From contig NZ_CP096205.1 in NCBI RefSeq assembly GCF_023195775.1, positions 1,178,001 through 1,242,000 on the forward strand: a DNA stretch of 64,000 nt, in the 5' to 3' direction. The DNA is from Flavobacterium azooxidireducens (GTDB lineage Bacteria; Bacteroidota; Bacteroidia; Flavobacteriales; Flavobacteriaceae). The position numbers were made by a program, and so were the translations under genes. Under the pieces are notes generated by a model. That model searched no databases, was not told the DNA's origin, and saw nothing but the letters and a program-made list of their open reading frames with translations. Shown one piece after another: positions 20,289 to 26,118 of this stretch (positions are counted from its first letter, which is position 1; each line of letters opens with the position of its first letter).

Positions 20289-21587
20289 ATGAAAAAAATA
20301 CTTTTAATTTTCACTTTTATTATTCCACTTCTTCTTACTTCTCAAAATGAAGAAACCATTGATTGGATAACCACTCATTCGATTGCAATTGAAGATGCGA
20401 ATCCTGATTCTGAAATGATCCTTTTTAAGCAAAACACACCTACTAAATTTGACAATGCTACTCTTTATGGGTTTGGAGAAGCATCTCATAACACAAAAGA
20501 ATTTTTTGACATCAAAGCAAAGTTTTTTAAACATTTAGTAAAAAATCAAGGTGTCAAAATTTTTATAATGGAAGAATCGTATCAAGCCGAAGCAGGAATT
20601 AACGAGTGGATTAGTGGAGGAAAAGGCGATATAAAAACGATAGCCGAAAATTTTAATGTGGGATTTTGGTATACTAAAGAAATCGTCAATCTTCTGGAAT
20701 GGATGCAGGATTATAATGTAGATAAACCACGTGAAGAGCAAATTCGATTTTACGGAATGGATGTTCAAATAGGAGAAAAAATAAATCTGGAAATAAGAGA
20801 ATTCATTACTAAGAATAAAATCTCTGTTGATGAAAACCTATTAACTGTAATAGATAGCTGTGCAAATAAAAAAATAGATTTTAGCAAAGCAGAAAGCTGG
20901 TGGCAAATTCAGACTCCAAAATTAAATGAACTAAAAGAGCAATTACTAAATTCAAAAACAAATAATAATGAAACCAAATCTATCGTAAGAAGTTTAGATT
21001 ACTTGATAAGTTATACTGAATATGGATCATCAATTCAACAGAAATATCCCAAGAGTACAGAATTTAGGGATTTGAAAATGTTTGAAAATGTAAAATATAT
21101 AGTAGAATATGAATCTAAGAATGGAAAAGCATTTATTTGGGCACATAATGAACACATTAATAAAAAAGAAATGTACTATACCGGAAGTAATATAATTAAT
21201 TTAGGTCGTCATTTGAAGGATTATTATAGCGACAAGTATTATAGTGTTGGATTCGATTTTGGAACCGGAAAAATAAACGGTTATGTTACTGATAAAAAGA
21301 AAGGAAATCATTGGAAAACATATCATATAGAAAAGCCATTTCGAAAGACATATGCCAACACATTGATGTCCGTTGACAAGGATATTTATTTTGTGGATTT
21401 GGAAAACGCACTTAATAATGAACCAACCAATTTTTTTAGTGAAAAATCAAATCATTTAGTCATTGGCGGTGGTGGATATCAACCTAAACCTTTGCATAAG
21501 ATTTTGGTCAGTAAAATATATACCGAAACGTATGATGGTTTAATTTTTGTTAAAAGCATATCGATACCCGATTATAAATTAAACTAA
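20289..21587 (+). CDS. erythromycin-esterase-family hydrolase, secreted
   Basis: The ATG at 20289 is preferred over a TTG just before it. It gives a signal peptide (KKILLIFTFIIPLLLTSQ). The erythromycin esterase fold follows, with the active-site pattern GFGEASHNTKEFF (about 61-73: Glu and the first His), FIMEESY (Glu) and IWAHNEHINK (second His, about 283). Family members hydrolyse macrolide lactones or other esters; a signal peptide and a position outside any resistance cassette suggest a housekeeping or cell-surface substrate, not antibiotic resistance. Length 432 is normal. Confidence 0.8.
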   Translation: MKKILLIFTFIIPLLLTSQNEETIDWITTHSIAIEDANPDSEMILFKQNTPTKFDNATLYGFGEASHNTKEFFDIKAKFFKHLVKNQGVKIFIMEESYQAEAGINEWISGGKGDIKTIAENFNVGFWYTKEIVNLLEWMQDYNVDKPREEQIRFYGMDVQIGEKINLEIREFITKNKISVDENLLTVIDSCANKKIDFSKAESWWQIQTPKLNELKEQLLNSKTNNNETKSIVRSLDYLISYTEYGSSIQQKYPKSTEFRDLKMFENVKYIVEYESKNGKAFIWAHNEHINKKEMYYTGSNIINLGRHLKDYYSDKYYSVGFDFGTGKINGYVTDKKKGNHWKTYHIEKPFRKTYANTLMSVDKDIYFVDLENALNNEPTNFFSEKSNHLVIGGGGYQPKPLHKILVSKIYTETYDGLIFVKSISIPDYKLN

Positions 21588-21631
21588 TAAATGGTGTGCG
21601 AACTCCGCTACCATTTTCAATATTCAATACA

Positions 21632-22540
21632 ATGACAGACCCTAAAAATTTTGATGTAATCATCATCGGTGGAAGTTATGCAGGACTTTCAGCAGGAATG
21701 GCATTAGGCCGAGCTTTACGAACAGTTTTAATCATTGATAGTGGTTTGCCTTGCAACCGGCAAACACCCCATTCGCATAATTTTATTACACAAGATGGCG
21801 AGAAACCAAAAGTTATTGCAGAGAAAGCCAAAGCACAGGTTTTAAAATACAATACGGTAAAATTCTTAAATGACCTTGCGGTTGATGGAAAGAAAACTGA
21901 AAAAGGTTTTACAATCACTACTAAAGCAGGCGAACTATTTGGAGCAAAAAAACTCATTTTTGCAACAGGAGTAAAAGACATTATGCCTAACATAGAAGGT
22001 TTTTCAGCATGTTGGGGAATTTCAGTCATCCATTGCCCCTACTGCCACGGTTACGAAGTAAAAAGCGAAAAAACAGGAATCTTGGCCAACGGAGATGCAG
22101 CACTACACTATGCTCAACTACTACGAAATTGGACAAAAGACCTGACCATTTTTACCAACGGAAAATCTACACTAACACCAGAACAAACCGAAAAAATCGA
22201 CAAGCACGCCATTCCGATAATCGAAAAAGAAATTGCTCAACTGAAACACGAAAACGGTACTATCAGTCAAATCGTATTCAGAGACCATTCAACCTTTAAC
22301 CTCAAAGCAATCTATTCGCGTCCTGACTTTGAGCAACATTGCAACATCCCCGAAATATTGGGTTGCGAACTCACTGAACAAGGTTTAGTAAAAGTAGATC
22401 TATTTCAAAAAACATCCGTTGCAAGTGTTTTTGCTTGTGGTGATAATGCGAGTCCATTGCGTTCCGTTTCCAATGCAGTTGCCGCAGGTGGCCTTGCAGG
22501 TGCTATGGTAAATAATATTATGACTGAGGAAGAGTTTTAG
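21632..22540 (+). CDS. thioredoxin-reductase-like FAD/NAD(P) oxidoreductase
   Basis: The ATG at 21632 is chosen because FAD binding begins right after it: DVIIIGGSYAGLSAG (9-23 of 302 residues). The redox-active pair is CPYCHGYE (about 133-140), the position and spacing of thioredoxin reductase-like enzymes. The second FAD signature is VFACGDNASP near the C-terminus. The NADP domain is short and atypical: ILANGDAALHYA in place of a clear GxGxxA. Homologues of this type often lack thioredoxin activity and may oxidise small dithiols. The gene follows the esterase by 44 bases and may be co-transcribed. Confidence 0.82.
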   Translation: MTDPKNFDVIIIGGSYAGLSAGMALGRALRTVLIIDSGLPCNRQTPHSHNFITQDGEKPKVIAEKAKAQVLKYNTVKFLNDLAVDGKKTEKGFTITTKAGELFGAKKLIFATGVKDIMPNIEGFSACWGISVIHCPYCHGYEVKSEKTGILANGDAALHYAQLLRNWTKDLTIFTNGKSTLTPEQTEKIDKHAIPIIEKEIAQLKHENGTISQIVFRDHSTFNLKAIYSRPDFEQHCNIPEILGCELTEQGLVKVDLFQKTSVASVFACGDNASPLRSVSNAVAAGGLAGAMVNNIMTEEEF

Positions 22541-22579
22541 CACTTAAAAGTACAACCATCATACAACTTCTCCACCGTG

Positions 22580-22651
22580 GCGAACTAGAACAAATCCCGA
22601 TAGCTATTTGTACCGATATTACCTAGGTTAACAATCAGATGTCGCGTACTT
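22580..22651. repeat. degenerate tRNA-Asn-like fragment with half palindrome
   Basis: Read on the minus strand, ACATCTGATTGTTAACC resembles the anticodon arm of the intact tRNA-Asn at 24503-24576. It is followed by ATAGCTATCGGGATT, most of the palindrome found in the other fragments, and a trace of the T-loop region (TTCTAGTTCG). It overlaps the last codons of the GIY-YIG gene. Confidence 0.45.
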
Positions 22652-22924
22652 ATTTAGTAATTTAGAAGTAATCTCAGGATATATAGCAAGATTCTCAATA
22701 TACACTTTGCTCTTCATCGCTTTGATATGTTTTTCAATGGCCAAAGCTTGATTTTTAGAAGTACATGCTAACGAAAAGAACAAAGTCCAATCGTCTGCTT
22801 TGTAAGTAAATTTTCGTGCTTGTGTGTCATGGAGATGGAAGTCTAGTCTCAAGTCTAGATTAGTGGTATAACCGATATAAAACCGGTTTAGCTTTTGGGA
22901 GTGTAGAATGTAAACTATGTGCAT
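22628..22924 (-). CDS. small GIY-YIG endonuclease-domain protein
   Basis: At 98 residues it is a stand-alone GIY-YIG domain of the UPF0213-like type: VYILHSQKLNRFYIGYTTNLDLRLDFHLH (4-32) with the two Tyr strands and the catalytic Arg, then AIEKHIKAMKS with the conserved Glu. Such genes occur in several copies beside tRNA genes in Bacteroidota, and their 3' ends often read into tRNA sequence. Here the last codons overlap tRNA-Asn-like sequence in the same way. The domain may nick DNA; a role in spreading with tRNA fragments is inferred. Confidence 0.85.
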   Translation of the reverse strand: MHIVYILHSQKLNRFYIGYTTNLDLRLDFHLHDTQARKFTYKADDWTLFFSLACTSKNQALAIEKHIKAMKSKVYIENLAIYPEITSKLLNKYATSDC

Positions 22925-22975
22925 GGCGGATAAATTTAAAATAAAAAATTGACACTTTCGTATCAGGCTTTCTGC

Positions 22976-23009
22976 TCTTTCTTTTGGGCTCGAACCAATC
23001 CCGATAGCT
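22976..23009 (-). pseudogene. tRNA-Asn-like fragment, left part, cut by the IS
   Basis: It reads into the IS as T-loop sequence (CTCGAACCA on the plus strand) followed by TCCCGATAGCT, half of a palindrome that ends at the IS boundary. Joined to 24383-24416 it gives the same order as the fragment at 24631-24706. Confidence 0.7.
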
Positions 23010-23011
23010 CC

Positions 23012-23019
23012 TATGTTTG
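23012..23019 (+). promoter_or_regulatory. -7 box at the left end of the IS
   Basis: TATGTTTG matches TAnnTTTG. In the inserted form no matching -33 element lies upstream. In the circular form, TTTG at 24361-24364 in the right end would be placed exactly 20 bases before it. Confidence 0.6.
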
Positions 23020-23024
23020 CAAAA

Positions 23025-23212
23025 TAAAGTTGATATTATAAATTTGAAGAAATAAAGTGAAAAGAAAGAGAGTATACCGATGGCTAAATAACTCTTGAAG
23101 TATATTGTTCGATAGATATTACCTCTTTCTTTTTTATCTTTTAGAGTTTGAACAGAATGTAAAGAATTGAGTATTGCTTAATATCTTGAATATCCAACTA
23201 GGAGAAAAGACG
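23025..23212 (+). ncRNA. putative bridge RNA of the IS110 element
   Basis: The target-binding loop is closed by an 11-bp perfect stem (23060-23070 with 23123-23133) and has an inner hairpin at 23087-23106. On its 5' side CCGATGGCT (23077-23085) equals the left target CCGATAGCT except for one G that can pair with T. On its 3' side TTCGATAG (23108-23115) pairs with the right target CTATCGGG, six Watson-Crick and two G-U. The donor-binding loop is closed by TCTTTT/AAAAGA (23137-23142 with 23205-23210). It carries ACAGAAT (23152-23158), identical to the seven bases before the right-end CT, and TAGGAG (23199-23204), the complement of the left-end CTCCTA. Order and strand sense follow the IS621 bridge RNA. 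The RNA ends are approximate. Confidence 0.8.
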
Positions 23213-23253
23213 AAGGAAGATACATCACTTTATCAATTACTAATATTAAAAAA

Positions 23254-24294
23254 ATGATTAAAAAATTATTAAAACAAGTCGCAGGAATTGATGTTGCTCA
23301 AAAGGAATTAGTCATTACTTTAGGCCGTATATATGAAGATTTCAACATTGAGTTATTTAGTTACAAAGTTTTTAAAAACAGTGATTCTGGAATTAAATCA
23401 TTGGTTGAATGGGTAAATAAGCAAATAGATAAAGAGCTTCCCATACGTTACGTTATGGAAGCAACCGGAGTTTATCATCAAAAGTTTGCATATCATTTAG
23501 TCGATAACGGTTGTGAGGTAAGTATTGTATTACCCAATAAGATTAGTAATTACATACGAACCTTAGAACAAAAAACAGTAACCGATAAGAGTTGTTCGCA
23601 AGCAATTGCACAATTTGGATTAGAGCGAAAATTAGATCGATGGACAAAGCCTAAAAGCATTTACAGGGAGCTACAACAGCTTACCCGTGAAAGAGAGCAA
23701 ATTGTTCAAGAGAGGAGTAATATTAAAAACCAAATACATGCTGAAAGTGTAGAAGCTATGCCAAATGAACGAAGTCTTGATAGGATGAAAAAGAGAATAG
23801 TATTATTGAATTTACAAGAAAAAGAAATAAAAAAAGAAATCAACGAAATTACAAAAGCTGATCTTCAAGTGTCCAATATCATCAAAAGAGTTACATCAAT
23901 ACCTGGTGTTGGTGAATTAACCGCAGTGACAGTTTTAGCGGAAACAAACGGTTTTGAATTAATAAGAAACAAATCTCAGCTAACTAGTTATGCAGGACTG
24001 GATGTAAAAGAAAAGCAATCAGGAACCTCAGTAAAGGGGAAGCCAAGAATATCCAAGAAAGGAAATAGGTTTTTAAGAAAATCATTGCATTTACCAGCAT
24101 TAAGTGCTGTAAAATGGGATGAAAATTTTAAAAGTGTTTACGCAAGATTAGTGTCTAAACACGGTATTAAAATGAAAGCTTTGGTAGCAGTTCAAAGAAA
24201 GTTACTCGAACTAATCTATATTTTATTCAAAAATGAAACAGTTTACGATAAAGAATATATAACAAAAAATAGCGTGCAAACACAAATGGTTTAA
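23254..24294 (+). CDS. IS110-family DEDD recombinase (transposase)
   Basis: The 346-residue protein has a RuvC-like DEDD domain at the N-terminus: AGIDVAQKELVITLG with the first Asp (about 14), then YVMEATGVYH with the Glu (about 69) and a TDKSCSQAIA segment with a further Asp. A coiled-coil region follows (about 135-205). The C-terminal Tnp domain has SIPGVGELTAVTVLAE and SYAGLDVKEKQSGTSVKGKP, containing the serine expected to attack DNA. Both domains are full length, so the enzyme looks active. IS110 enzymes use a bridge RNA to pair donor and target DNA and recombine at a dinucleotide core. Confidence 0.93.
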   Translation: MIKKLLKQVAGIDVAQKELVITLGRIYEDFNIELFSYKVFKNSDSGIKSLVEWVNKQIDKELPIRYVMEATGVYHQKFAYHLVDNGCEVSIVLPNKISNYIRTLEQKTVTDKSCSQAIAQFGLERKLDRWTKPKSIYRELQQLTREREQIVQERSNIKNQIHAESVEAMPNERSLDRMKKRIVLLNLQEKEIKKEINEITKADLQVSNIIKRVTSIPGVGELTAVTVLAETNGFELIRNKSQLTSYAGLDVKEKQSGTSVKGKPRISKKGNRFLRKSLHLPALSAVKWDENFKSVYARLVSKHGIKMKALVAVQRKLLELIYILFKNETVYDKEYITKNSVQTQMV

Positions 24295-24382
24295 ACACGC
24301 TATAGAGACTAGTTCAGAGACTGTCTTGAAAAACAAAACTAATAAAAATTTAGATTTTATTTTGGAAATCAACACAGAATCT

Positions 24383-24416
24383 ATCGGGACTATGATTAAC
24401 AGTCAGATGCATCTTT
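24383..24416 (-). pseudogene. tRNA-Asn-like fragment, right part, cut by the IS
   Basis: ATCGGGACTATGATTAACAG resumes the palindrome and the anticodon arm of the interrupted fragment (one change, TATGATT for TCTGATT), then drifts into unrelated sequence. The D-arm and acceptor are lost. Confidence 0.65.
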
Positions 24417-24468
24417 ATATAGTATATGAAAAATAAACTTTACTTAAACATTAAGGAAAGTATATAAA

Positions 24469-24501
24469 CAAAAAAAGCCTGACATTTCTGTCAAGCTTTT
24501 T
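24469..24501 (-). terminator. terminator of tRNA-Asn
   Basis: On the minus strand a stem of AAAAAGCTTGACA and TGTCAGGCTTTTT, with one mismatch and a short loop, is followed by T. It lies directly after the tRNA. Confidence 0.75.
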
Positions 24502-24502
24502 G

Positions 24503-24576
24503 CTCCCCCTCTTGGGCTCGAACCAAGGACCCTCTGATTAACAGTCAGATGCTCTAACCAACTGAGCTAAGGAGGA
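24503..24576 (-). tRNA. tRNA-Asn (anticodon GTT)
   Basis: All four arms pair: acceptor TCCTCCT with AGGGGGA (one G-T), D-arm AGCTCAGTTGGTTAGAGC, anticodon stem TCTGA/TCAGA around loop CTGTTAA giving GTT, and T-arm CTTGG-TTCGAGC-CCAAG. The discriminator is G and CCA is not encoded, as is usual in Bacteroidota. It is the only intact tRNA in the window. Confidence 0.95.
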
Positions 24577-24630
24577 ATAACCGTATAGGTTATAATATTT
24601 TCAACATTTCAATTTAGAACTTAAACTTCT

Positions 24631-24706
24631 TAGCTCGAACCAATCCCGATAGCTATCGGGACTCTGATTAACAGTCAGATGCTCTAACCAACTGAGCTAA
24701 GGAGGA
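24631..24706 (-). pseudogene. tRNA-Asn-like pseudogene carrying an intact IS110 target palindrome
   Basis: From the acceptor 5' strand through the anticodon arm it is identical to the intact tRNA-Asn. The variable loop and the start of the T-stem are then replaced by TCCCGATAGCTATCGGGA. The T-loop TTCGAGC remains, but its stem no longer pairs (ATTGG against TAAGA) and the 3' acceptor strand is gone. The palindrome CCCGATAGCTATCGGG (24645-24660) is the empty version of the site into which the IS inserted. Confidence 0.8.
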
Positions 24707-24795
24707 AGGTGTATAACCTTTTTTGCGAGTGCAAATATAAAGCGAAAAATGATTTATCCAAACAAAATCTGCACTTTTTTACACTTTTTATTTTA

Positions 24796-26118
24796 TTATT
24801 TTCCGGTGACCAAATGCCAGATGTCGTTCCCAAACACTAATGCCATCAATGTCAGCAAAATAACTACTCCGATTGTTTGAGCCACTTCTAAAGTTTTTTC
24901 GGTTGGTTTTTTGCGGGTAACTATTTCAATTAAAATAAATACGGCATGACCACCGTCTAATCCCGGAATCGGAAGCACATTCAAGAACGCCAACCACACT
25001 GAAAACATCGCTGTAAACGACCAGAAAAATGTCCAATCCCACGTTGGTTTAAAGATTTTAAACATTCGCAACGGACCACTTACTTGTTTGTACGCTTCCG
25101 TTTTGGTATTAAAAATGATTTTAAATTGTTTTATTTGTCCGGTTAAGGTTGTAATGGTTTTATTAAAACCAGCCGGTATAGATTGTGCAAAAGAAACTTC
25201 TTTCGTTACATAAGCTTCTTTTAACGTATTTGCTCTATGATAAAAACCAAGTTTGGCATCAGCGGTTGTTTTGGCTTTAACCACTATTGTTTCGTTATTA
25301 CGAATAACTTTAATATCAATACTATCATTCTTGTGTTGACTTATTTCTGCAATAAATTCATCATAGTAAGCAACATTTGTATTGTCAATCGCTATGATTT
25401 TATCTCCCAATTTCAATCCTGCTAAATCAGCCGGTTGTCCTATCAACAAAGAATCTACAACAACTTCTTCACGAGCAGCTAAAAAGTTCTTACCCGCTCT
25501 TTTAATTACGTCACGCTTACCTTCATCAGACAAATCAAACGTTAGCTCTTTTCCGTCTCTTAAAACAGTTATATCATCTCCAAATAAAATTTCTAATGGC
25601 AATTGTTCAAACTTCGCTTGTGATTTACCATCTACTTTCAAAATTTGATCCCCATTTTTTAATCCTAAAATGGTTCCAACAGAATCAACTGCAATTCCGT
25701 GTGTGATTTTTGAATTATCAATGAAATTATCTCCGTGATTGATGAAAAGACAGGCATAAATTATCCATGCCAAAAAGAAATTCACGATTACACCACCCAT
25801 GATGATGATTAAACGTTGCCAGGCCGGTTTGCTACGGTATTCCCAAGGTTGTGGCTCTTGTTTGAGTTGCTCCTTGTCCATGCTTTCGTCAATCATTCCG
25901 GCAATTTTTACATAACCGCCCATTGGCAACCATCCGATTCCGTATTCGGTTTCGCCGATTTTTTTCTTAACCAAAGAAAACCAAGGATTAAAGAAAAGAT
26001 AGAATTTTTCAATTTTTGTTTTAAAGTATTTTGCCGGTAAAAAATGTCCTAATTCGTGAAGTATTACCAGAAAAGAAAGGCACAAAATCAACTGTGCTAT
26101 TTGAATTAATGTTTCCAT
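24796..26118 (-). CDS. rseP: RseP-type site-2 membrane metalloprotease
   Basis: A 440-residue inner-membrane zinc protease that cuts membrane-bound anti-sigma factors and remnant signal peptides. The active site HELGH is at 21-25 in the first helix and the third ligand is in GLDGGHAVF (about 386-394). Between them are two PDZ domains (about 130-300), seen in GLKNGDQILKVDG and LAGLKLGDKIIAID. Two C-terminal helices complete the core. Length and order are standard. Transcribed alone. Confidence 0.93.
   Translation of the reverse strand: METLIQIAQLILCLSFLVILHELGHFLPAKYFKTKIEKFYLFFNPWFSLVKKKIGETEYGIGWLPMGGYVKIAGMIDESMDKEQLKQEPQPWEYRSKPAWQRLIIIMGGVIVNFFLAWIIYACLFINHGDNFIDNSKITHGIAVDSVGTILGLKNGDQILKVDGKSQAKFEQLPLEILFGDDITVLRDGKELTFDLSDEGKRDVIKRAGKNFLAAREEVVVDSLLIGQPADLAGLKLGDKIIAIDNTNVAYYDEFIAEISQHKNDSIDIKVIRNNETIVVKAKTTADAKLGFYHRANTLKEAYVTKEVSFAQSIPAGFNKTITTLTGQIKQFKIIFNTKTEAYKQVSGPLRMFKIFKPTWDWTFFWSFTAMFSVWLAFLNVLPIPGLDGGHAVFILIEIVTRKKPTEKTLEVAQTIGVVILLTLMALVFGNDIWHLVTGK

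Follow-up and report, generated by a model that had tools for sequence, protein, structure and literature searches.

The window, that is, the whole analysed stretch of 64,000 nucleotides from Flavobacterium azooxidireducens (contig NZ_CP096205.1), contains an element of 1,373 bp on the plus strand (23008..24380), which starts with the left core CT and stops just short of the right core CT. It encodes a recombinase of 346 amino acids (23254..24294, plus strand) with two IS110 domains (PF01548 and PF02371), for which family and fold agree; 244 bp separate the core CT from the ATG, and about 86 bp separate the stop codon from the right end. We compared the six full copies of the element in the 3.82-Mb single-contig genome and found them identical over 1,373 bp at six sites. 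The flank pairs differed among all six copies, which fixes the ends independently of any RNA, so that 23008 and 24380 are certain. Every copy interrupts the palindrome CCCGATAGCTATCGGG or its one-base variant, directly after CCCGATAG (CCCGATAT in copy L006): at the left junction, a flank with this ending is followed by the element start CTCCTATG, and at the right junction, the element end ACAGAAT is followed by CTATCGGG. Based on flank comparison, the left target CCGATAG with the core CT was located at 23001..23009 and the right core CT with the right target ATCGG at 24381..24387 (both plus strand), the agreeing spans stopping at -9 and +7, respectively. A seventh genomic place matched over just 185 bp of the right end and is preceded by sequence that reads N.

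A genome search for exact copies revealed four unoccupied CCCGATAGCTATCGGG palindromes, one of them in the window at 24645..24660 (no strand assigned). This one is held by a degenerate tRNA-like copy (24643-24706, 28.6 bits), which adjoins a tRNA-Asn gene (24502-24576), and the element's own flanks, judged by eye, look like another tRNA-like remnant. Besides, a GIY-YIG domain protein adjoins the element (22628-22924, minus strand), and a long related element in genome G136 also has such a protein beside it, which is probably a coincidence.

Relatives were collected from 40 loci of named genomes and from 29 of 398 genus genomes at an E value of ≤1e-60, with further ones at ≤1e-100 from 5 of 397 family and 5 of 395 class genomes; these three counts (29, 5, and 5) include the window's own genome, and the matches were supplied as loci only in part. 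At the protein level, 7,501 of 8,000 scored proteins reached an E value of ≤1e-20. The main alignment comprised loci of at least 50% identity, and those below 50% (L069-L075) were set aside as a second clade. Thirteen loci of at least 50% identity but without a recognisable left end and five that are the window genome's copies (L048, L077, and L083-L085) were excluded. The 67 aligned left ends collapsed to 33 distinct guide pairs, 28 of them with a right flank; L008/L050, L019/L054, and L024/L051, each pair coming from one and the same contig, were merged in this step.

The recombinase lacks a complete DEDD motif: D13, E69, and D111 are present, and the fourth position is occupied by Cys114 (codon 23593..23595, plus strand), at the place of D105 in IS621. 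This is a property of the clade, in which position 114 was Asp in none of 54 distinct readable segments and was Cys, Ala, Ser, or Met instead, whereas a more distant group had Asp there in 10 of 10. The catalytic Ser of the Tnp domain is present as S256, conserved in all 53 readable segments; it aligned with IS621 S241 under a chain numbering offset of 2, deduced from the motif and the length of the chain. Since mutation of D105 abolishes IS621 activity, as described in PMC11208158, the element might move only in trans, through a DEDD-complete IS110 recombinase encoded elsewhere, its own DEDx enzyme being dead. However, D13, E69, D111, and S256 were kept wherever readable (50, 53, 55, and 53 segments, respectively) in this clade without any Asp at 114, which points to selection on the remaining catalytic residues across a whole mobile clade, and identical multi-copy sets occur within the clade (6 of 6 copies in the window's genome, 5 of 5 in G831, and 3 of 5 in BAL38). 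We regard movement solely in trans as unlikely. The recombinase itself probably acts without a fourth catalytic Asp, implying an active site that would differ in detail from that of IS621.

The sequence-only reading had described two closed stems holding guides upstream of the recombinase gene. In the sibling alignment, we found a structured core (23054-23231) of a putative bridge RNA (23024..23231, plus strand for both), whose predicted start at about 23024, or about 23051 via an internal box, was placed from a TAnnTTTG box and whose 3' end is likewise a prediction. An outer closing helix pairs AAAGTG (23054..23059, plus strand) with CACTTT (23226-23231); all six of its pairs showed double-sided changes, and 79.3% of its cells were paired, the lowest value except for one small helix, in a region where the alignment is uncertain. 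Within it, a target stem-loop (23060..23133, plus strand) consists of a stem (23060-23073/23121-23133) and an inner hairpin (23087-23093/23099-23106), with 98.6% and 100% of cells paired across the 33 siblings, and a donor stem-loop (23136..23221, plus strand) consists of a stem (23136-23149/23208-23221; two helices with 98.0 and 99.2% of cells paired) and an inner hairpin (23163-23171/23177-23186; 94.8 and 81.7%). Over the 33 sibling RNAs, 94.9% of the cells of this 45-pair structure were paired versus 47 to 52% in slid versions, a contrast that the slid control flatters, as the sequences used for counting had also served to draw the structure. For this reason, the double-sided changes are the stronger evidence: they were observed in 38 of the 45 pairs versus 18.3 in shuffles, and none of 500 shuffles matched the observed value on any of five structure measures.

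Folding of the window sequence alone gave no significant signal (z = -0.84 and -0.87; 36 and 37 of 200 shuffles folded equally well), so that the two closed stems stand by covariation over 33 RNAs and not by single-sequence folding. A covariance model placing the loops elsewhere had been named at the outset as evidence that would count against the reading; the structure with the 94.9% of fitting cells given above has the guides in the same two loops. In the genome, a covariance model built from this structure matched just the six element left ends at an E value of ≤1, and it found matches at ≤1e-4 in 17 of 299 genus genomes. An Rfam scan of 21500-26000 at an E value of ≤1 returned two tRNA matches and a weak plastid match and no bridge-RNA family. 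A weak model match of 50.5 bits (L114; G152:C8:12400-12531) had no related recombinase by tblastn (E ≤ 1e-5) within the 3.1 kb covered and is possibly a relic. The left end carries a structured non-coding RNA with two internal loops, as elements of the IS110 group do, and a bridge RNA is supported as a prediction from sequence.

Four guide segments had been proposed in these loops, and all four were found at their places: CCGATGGCT (23077-23085), TTCGATAG (23108-23115), ACAGAAT (23152-23158), and TAGGAG (23199-23204). The left target guide CCGATGGCT (plus strand) tracks its own left flank among siblings, and so does the right target guide with its right flank, in the shortened form TCGATAG (23109..23115, plus strand); the proposed TTCGATAG follows the target but is one base too long, as position +8 agreed in only 3 of 28 siblings, about the chance level. 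Agreement was counted per position, with one representative per guide pair (33 left and 28 right). On the left, it was 18 to 23 of 33 at positions -3 to -9 (8.9 to 12.8 expected) and dropped to 3 of 33 at -10; on the right, it was 25 to 28 of 28 at +3 to +7 (7.8 to 15.7 expected). Agreement at the core CT (24 and 27 of 33 on the left; 28 of 28 on the right) equaled expectation and hence is uninformative. Without the core, the right guide matched on average 5.16 of 6 bases (2.66 expected) and the left guide 4.64 of 7 (2.63 expected), values that none of 10,000 permutations reached on either side, in a test uncorrected for the relatedness of the siblings; the right-side result held with only the 21 distinct right 6-mers (0 of 10,000). 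These data show, at the level of sequence comparison, that the target guides track the insertion site with sharp edges, over 14 bp (7 nt, CT, and 5 nt). The strand sense assigned to the target guides (pairing with the bottom strand on the left and with the top strand on the right) also held in the siblings, more weakly on the left.

The right guide side is nearly perfect, and the left guide fit is weaker. Of the right guides, 21 of 28 had their own target as the joint best; of the left guides, 18 of 33 did, or 21 when offsets 0 to 2 were allowed. The most telling natural example, L052 (target CCCGAAAGCTTTCGGG, guides ACCGAAGGCT and TTCGAAAG), differs from the window element by one half-site base and has both guides changed at the corresponding position. 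In the window element and L052, the A located two bases ahead of the core faces a G, giving a G:T pair, and the same holds for L053 and L079. On a scale of 9 at zero offset, with the best of offsets 0 to 2 in brackets, left guides fitted poorly in L009, 3.5; L019/L054, 2.5 (4.0); L031, 5.0; L033, 5.0; L049, 4.0 (5.5); L078, 5.0 (5.5); L008/L050, 4.5 (5.5); L023, 2.0 (5.0); L027, 4.0 (4.5); L034, 5.5; L067, 1.5 (5.5); and L076, 4.5. They fitted better when shifted in L017, 4.5 (6.0), in L040 and L041, both 2.5 (8.0), and in loci L057-L059, L061-L065, and L068 of a cargo-bearing branch, 5.5 (7.5). In these shifted cases, the left guide is displaced by 1 to 2 nt relative to the core, and the right guide is in register where the flank is known. 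Register variation, off-target insertion, and later flank change are candidate readings of the uneven left fit. Siblings that keep their guides at unrelated targets had been named as evidence that would count against guide function; agreement was far above that under re-pairing, but L078 and L079, with the same left guide and different left targets, are such a case on the left side only, the right side of L078 fitting perfectly.

Directly after the right target guide, 31 of 33 siblings have an A, the complement of the invariant donor T, as expected of a handshake base; a donor-side counterpart, the A after the right donor guide, was rejected, as by eye it did not match the target base. Several target classes recur in different siblings, namely, the palindromes CCCGATAGCTATCGGG and CCCGAAAGCTTTCGGG and the right targets CTTTGCG and CTATGTG.

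In the donor loop, the left guide ACAGAAT (23152..23158, plus strand) equals the last seven bases of the element, and the right guide AGGAG (23200..23204, plus strand) is the complement of its first five bases, CTCCT; each was found in 33 of 33 RNAs of this clade and in 0 of 7 of the clade with other ends. The first base of the TAGGAG proposed earlier did not hold up, being T in 8, C in 21, and A in 4 of the 33 sibling representatives. Both the ends (ACAGAAT and CTCCTATG) and the donor guides hardly vary within this clade, so there is no covariation inside it. The second clade (L069-L075 and further copies), with a recombinase about 40% identical, has the ends ATAGTAC and CTCATATC and correspondingly different donor guides: its donor motifs were present in 7 of 7 (left) and 6 of 7 (right) of its own RNAs and in none of the 33 of the first clade. 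Comparison of the two clades shows that the donor guides follow the element's own ends, as judged from a single evolutionary contrast. The right target guide of the second clade seems shorter by eye (3 to 6 nt).

Could the matches reflect chance or shared ancestry, the stretch being a conserved leader or recombinase-binding region and the targets being recognised by protein? The weak single-sequence folding, the relatedness of the siblings, and the uneven left fit lean that way, as does the palindromic target, owing to which both target guides correspond to one half-site and are redundant rather than independent evidence. Nevertheless, the target loops vary with the flanks against a nearly constant background of element ends and remaining RNA, agreement ends sharply at -10 and +8, and L052 alters both guides along with its palindrome. 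Furthermore, the claim that four guides in order are unlikely by chance was borne out by 20,000 dinucleotide shuffles of 23018-23253, none of which reproduced them under the criteria used (left target, at least 8.5 of 9 nt with wobble at half weight; right target, at least 6.5 of 7; left donor, 7 of 7; right donor, 6 of 6). Singly, the motifs occurred in 49, 916, 682, and 1,040 shuffles, respectively, and at least three together in 9. We consider this explanation very improbable. Our main reading, to which we assign a probability of roughly 95%, is that a recently active, IS110-group-like insertion element of Flavobacterium produces a bridge RNA by transcription of its left end.

The usual -33 element of promoters is TTG. 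In Flavobacterium psychrophilum, the sigma-A -7 box is TAnnTTTG at -12 to -5, as given in PMC9723704. The left end of the element, which starts CTCCTATGTTTG, contains a Bacteroidota-type -7 box, TATGTTTG (23012..23019, plus strand), which would form a promoter with the TTG at 24362-24364 only across a circle junction. Among 32 distinct junctions of the joined ends, 25 have the right-end TTG exactly 20 nt upstream of TATGTTT, 2 have it at 19 nt, and 5 have it at neither spacing. Transcription from this candidate junction promoter would begin near 23024; conservation of the right end may have reasons other than a TTG promoter element. A possible second promoter inside the element is a weak one, TAAATTTG (23039..23046, plus strand) with TTG at 23017-23019 and a spacing of 19, from which transcription could, on this weak box, start near 23051. 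An internal TAnnTTTG occurs in 25 of 43 distinct left ends, with TTG at 19 to 20 nt in 7 of those 25; given this unconserved spacing, TTG-N19-TAAATTTG was rejected as the main promoter and is retained as a possible one. Taken together, we propose that the element excises as a circle, which would join the right-end TTG to the left-end TATGTTTG and so create a promoter; the bridge RNA would then be made and bound by the recombinase, its two loops would pair with the genomic palindrome and the circle junction, respectively, and recombination would take place at CT.

One branch of the clade (L055, L057-L065, and L068) showed no right end within the stretch examined, except L068, which has its right end at a distance of 2.7 kb from the left one, followed by the expected right target. 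We searched 12 genomes for the right end joined to the guide-predicted target AACACAGAATCTTTTCTT and obtained exactly one exact match in 11, the pattern containing the right target by design and the match position not. All 11 matches were on the recombinase's contig, on the same strand, and downstream; two-mismatch matches elsewhere and with a reversed control pattern were at noise level. The twelfth genome, G282, gave no exact match of this pattern, and its recombinase is truncated. Both ends were located in 10 of the 11 long elements (2,696 to 11,083 bp), with TTCTTTTGCTTCT at the left in all ten; in G179, the left end was looked for and not found. The elements of the branch span 2.7 to 11.1 kb (L152-L162, in 11 genus genomes), with cargo between the recombinase and the right end, mostly on the strand opposite the recombinase. 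The left end of L055 is duplicated in part, the outer copy (L153, in G007) being the one with the expected target. The joined target of this branch was unoccupied in 4 of the 12 genomes.

The cargo proteins were clustered and named from one representative of several clusters. An ACR3 arsenite efflux cluster, an ArsR-type regulator, and a chromate transporter were each present in 6 of the 11 elements, with another ArsR-type regulator in G371, and a sulfate permease in 4 of 11. An ArsC-like protein in 4 elements was below its family cutoff; a Na+/H+ antiporter, a cation efflux protein, and a MerT-like protein with a heavy-metal domain occurred once each. That the ends are shared and the cargo varies from genome to genome suggests that the whole cargo unit moves. 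We consider it rather probable, though by no means assured, that the window element is part of a large Bacteroidota clade whose bridge-RNA recombinases work with a three-acid (DED) site instead of DEDD and that one branch of it represents natural RNA-guided metal-resistance transposons of 2.7 to 11 kb. On account of its incomplete DEDD motif and its cargo branch, the clade counts as a variant, for which reason we call the element IS110-group-like rather than a strict member. Both features, the missing catalytic Asp and the cargo branch, go beyond the sequence-only reading.

These findings have several implications. The clade offers a natural test of how bridge RNA-guided DNA cleavage works, as every readable member examined has Cys, Ala, Ser, or Met in place of a residue that IS621 cannot do without, yet identical copies show movement. 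Many naturally re-programmed 14-bp targets are available together with their guides. Furthermore, the long siblings suggest that RNA-guided recombinases already shift multi-kilobase cargo in nature, including metal-resistance-like genes.

Mechanism and family were already known (PMC11208160, PMC11208158, PMC11187229, and PMC12045711), in line with the sequence-only reading, to which this member had also appeared new. A search of open-literature titles and abstract beginnings returned no natural IS110 cargo elements or altered DEDD motif, which is weak evidence of novelty, and the element may already have a catalogued name. The main texts of PMC11208160 and PMC11187229 contain no word starting with Flavobacter or Bacteroid, and their data sets may include such elements. 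According to passages of PMC11187229, ISEc11 is able to take along an extra gene under laboratory conditions; these passages do not describe natural cargo. A TIGR-Tas assignment was rejected, the recombinase scoring 38.6 bits against a family cutoff of 100.

According to the abstract of PMC11187229, the seekRNA of ISEc21 and IS1111 members is non-coding, matches both target strands, and co-purifies with the transposase, and IS110 types resemble the window element in having the non-coding region upstream. IS1111 members differ in that the RNA is downstream and the subterminal repeats are longer; that the element belongs to the IS1111 group, its RNA being read from the other end, is hardly credible in spite of the same protein domains, since the RNA sits in the left end and the subterminal repeat (AAC..GTT, in 26 of 28 siblings) is 3 bp rather than the 7 to 17 of the group definition (PMC11208160). 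The recombinase of ISCro4 (PDB 9t56) is 26% identical to ours in structural alignment and keeps the fourth Asp. That of IS621 is 24% identical in structural alignment and differs from the window clade, which lacks the fourth DEDD Asp. The right target guide of IS621 is 4 nt versus 7 nt here, longer ones being known in other orthologues. Unlike that of IS621, the 33 aligned RNAs, compared from the closing helix onward, have no stem-loop between this helix and the target stem. Finally, the junction promoter of IS621 is of the sigma70 type, whereas the candidate promoter here is of the Bacteroidota type.
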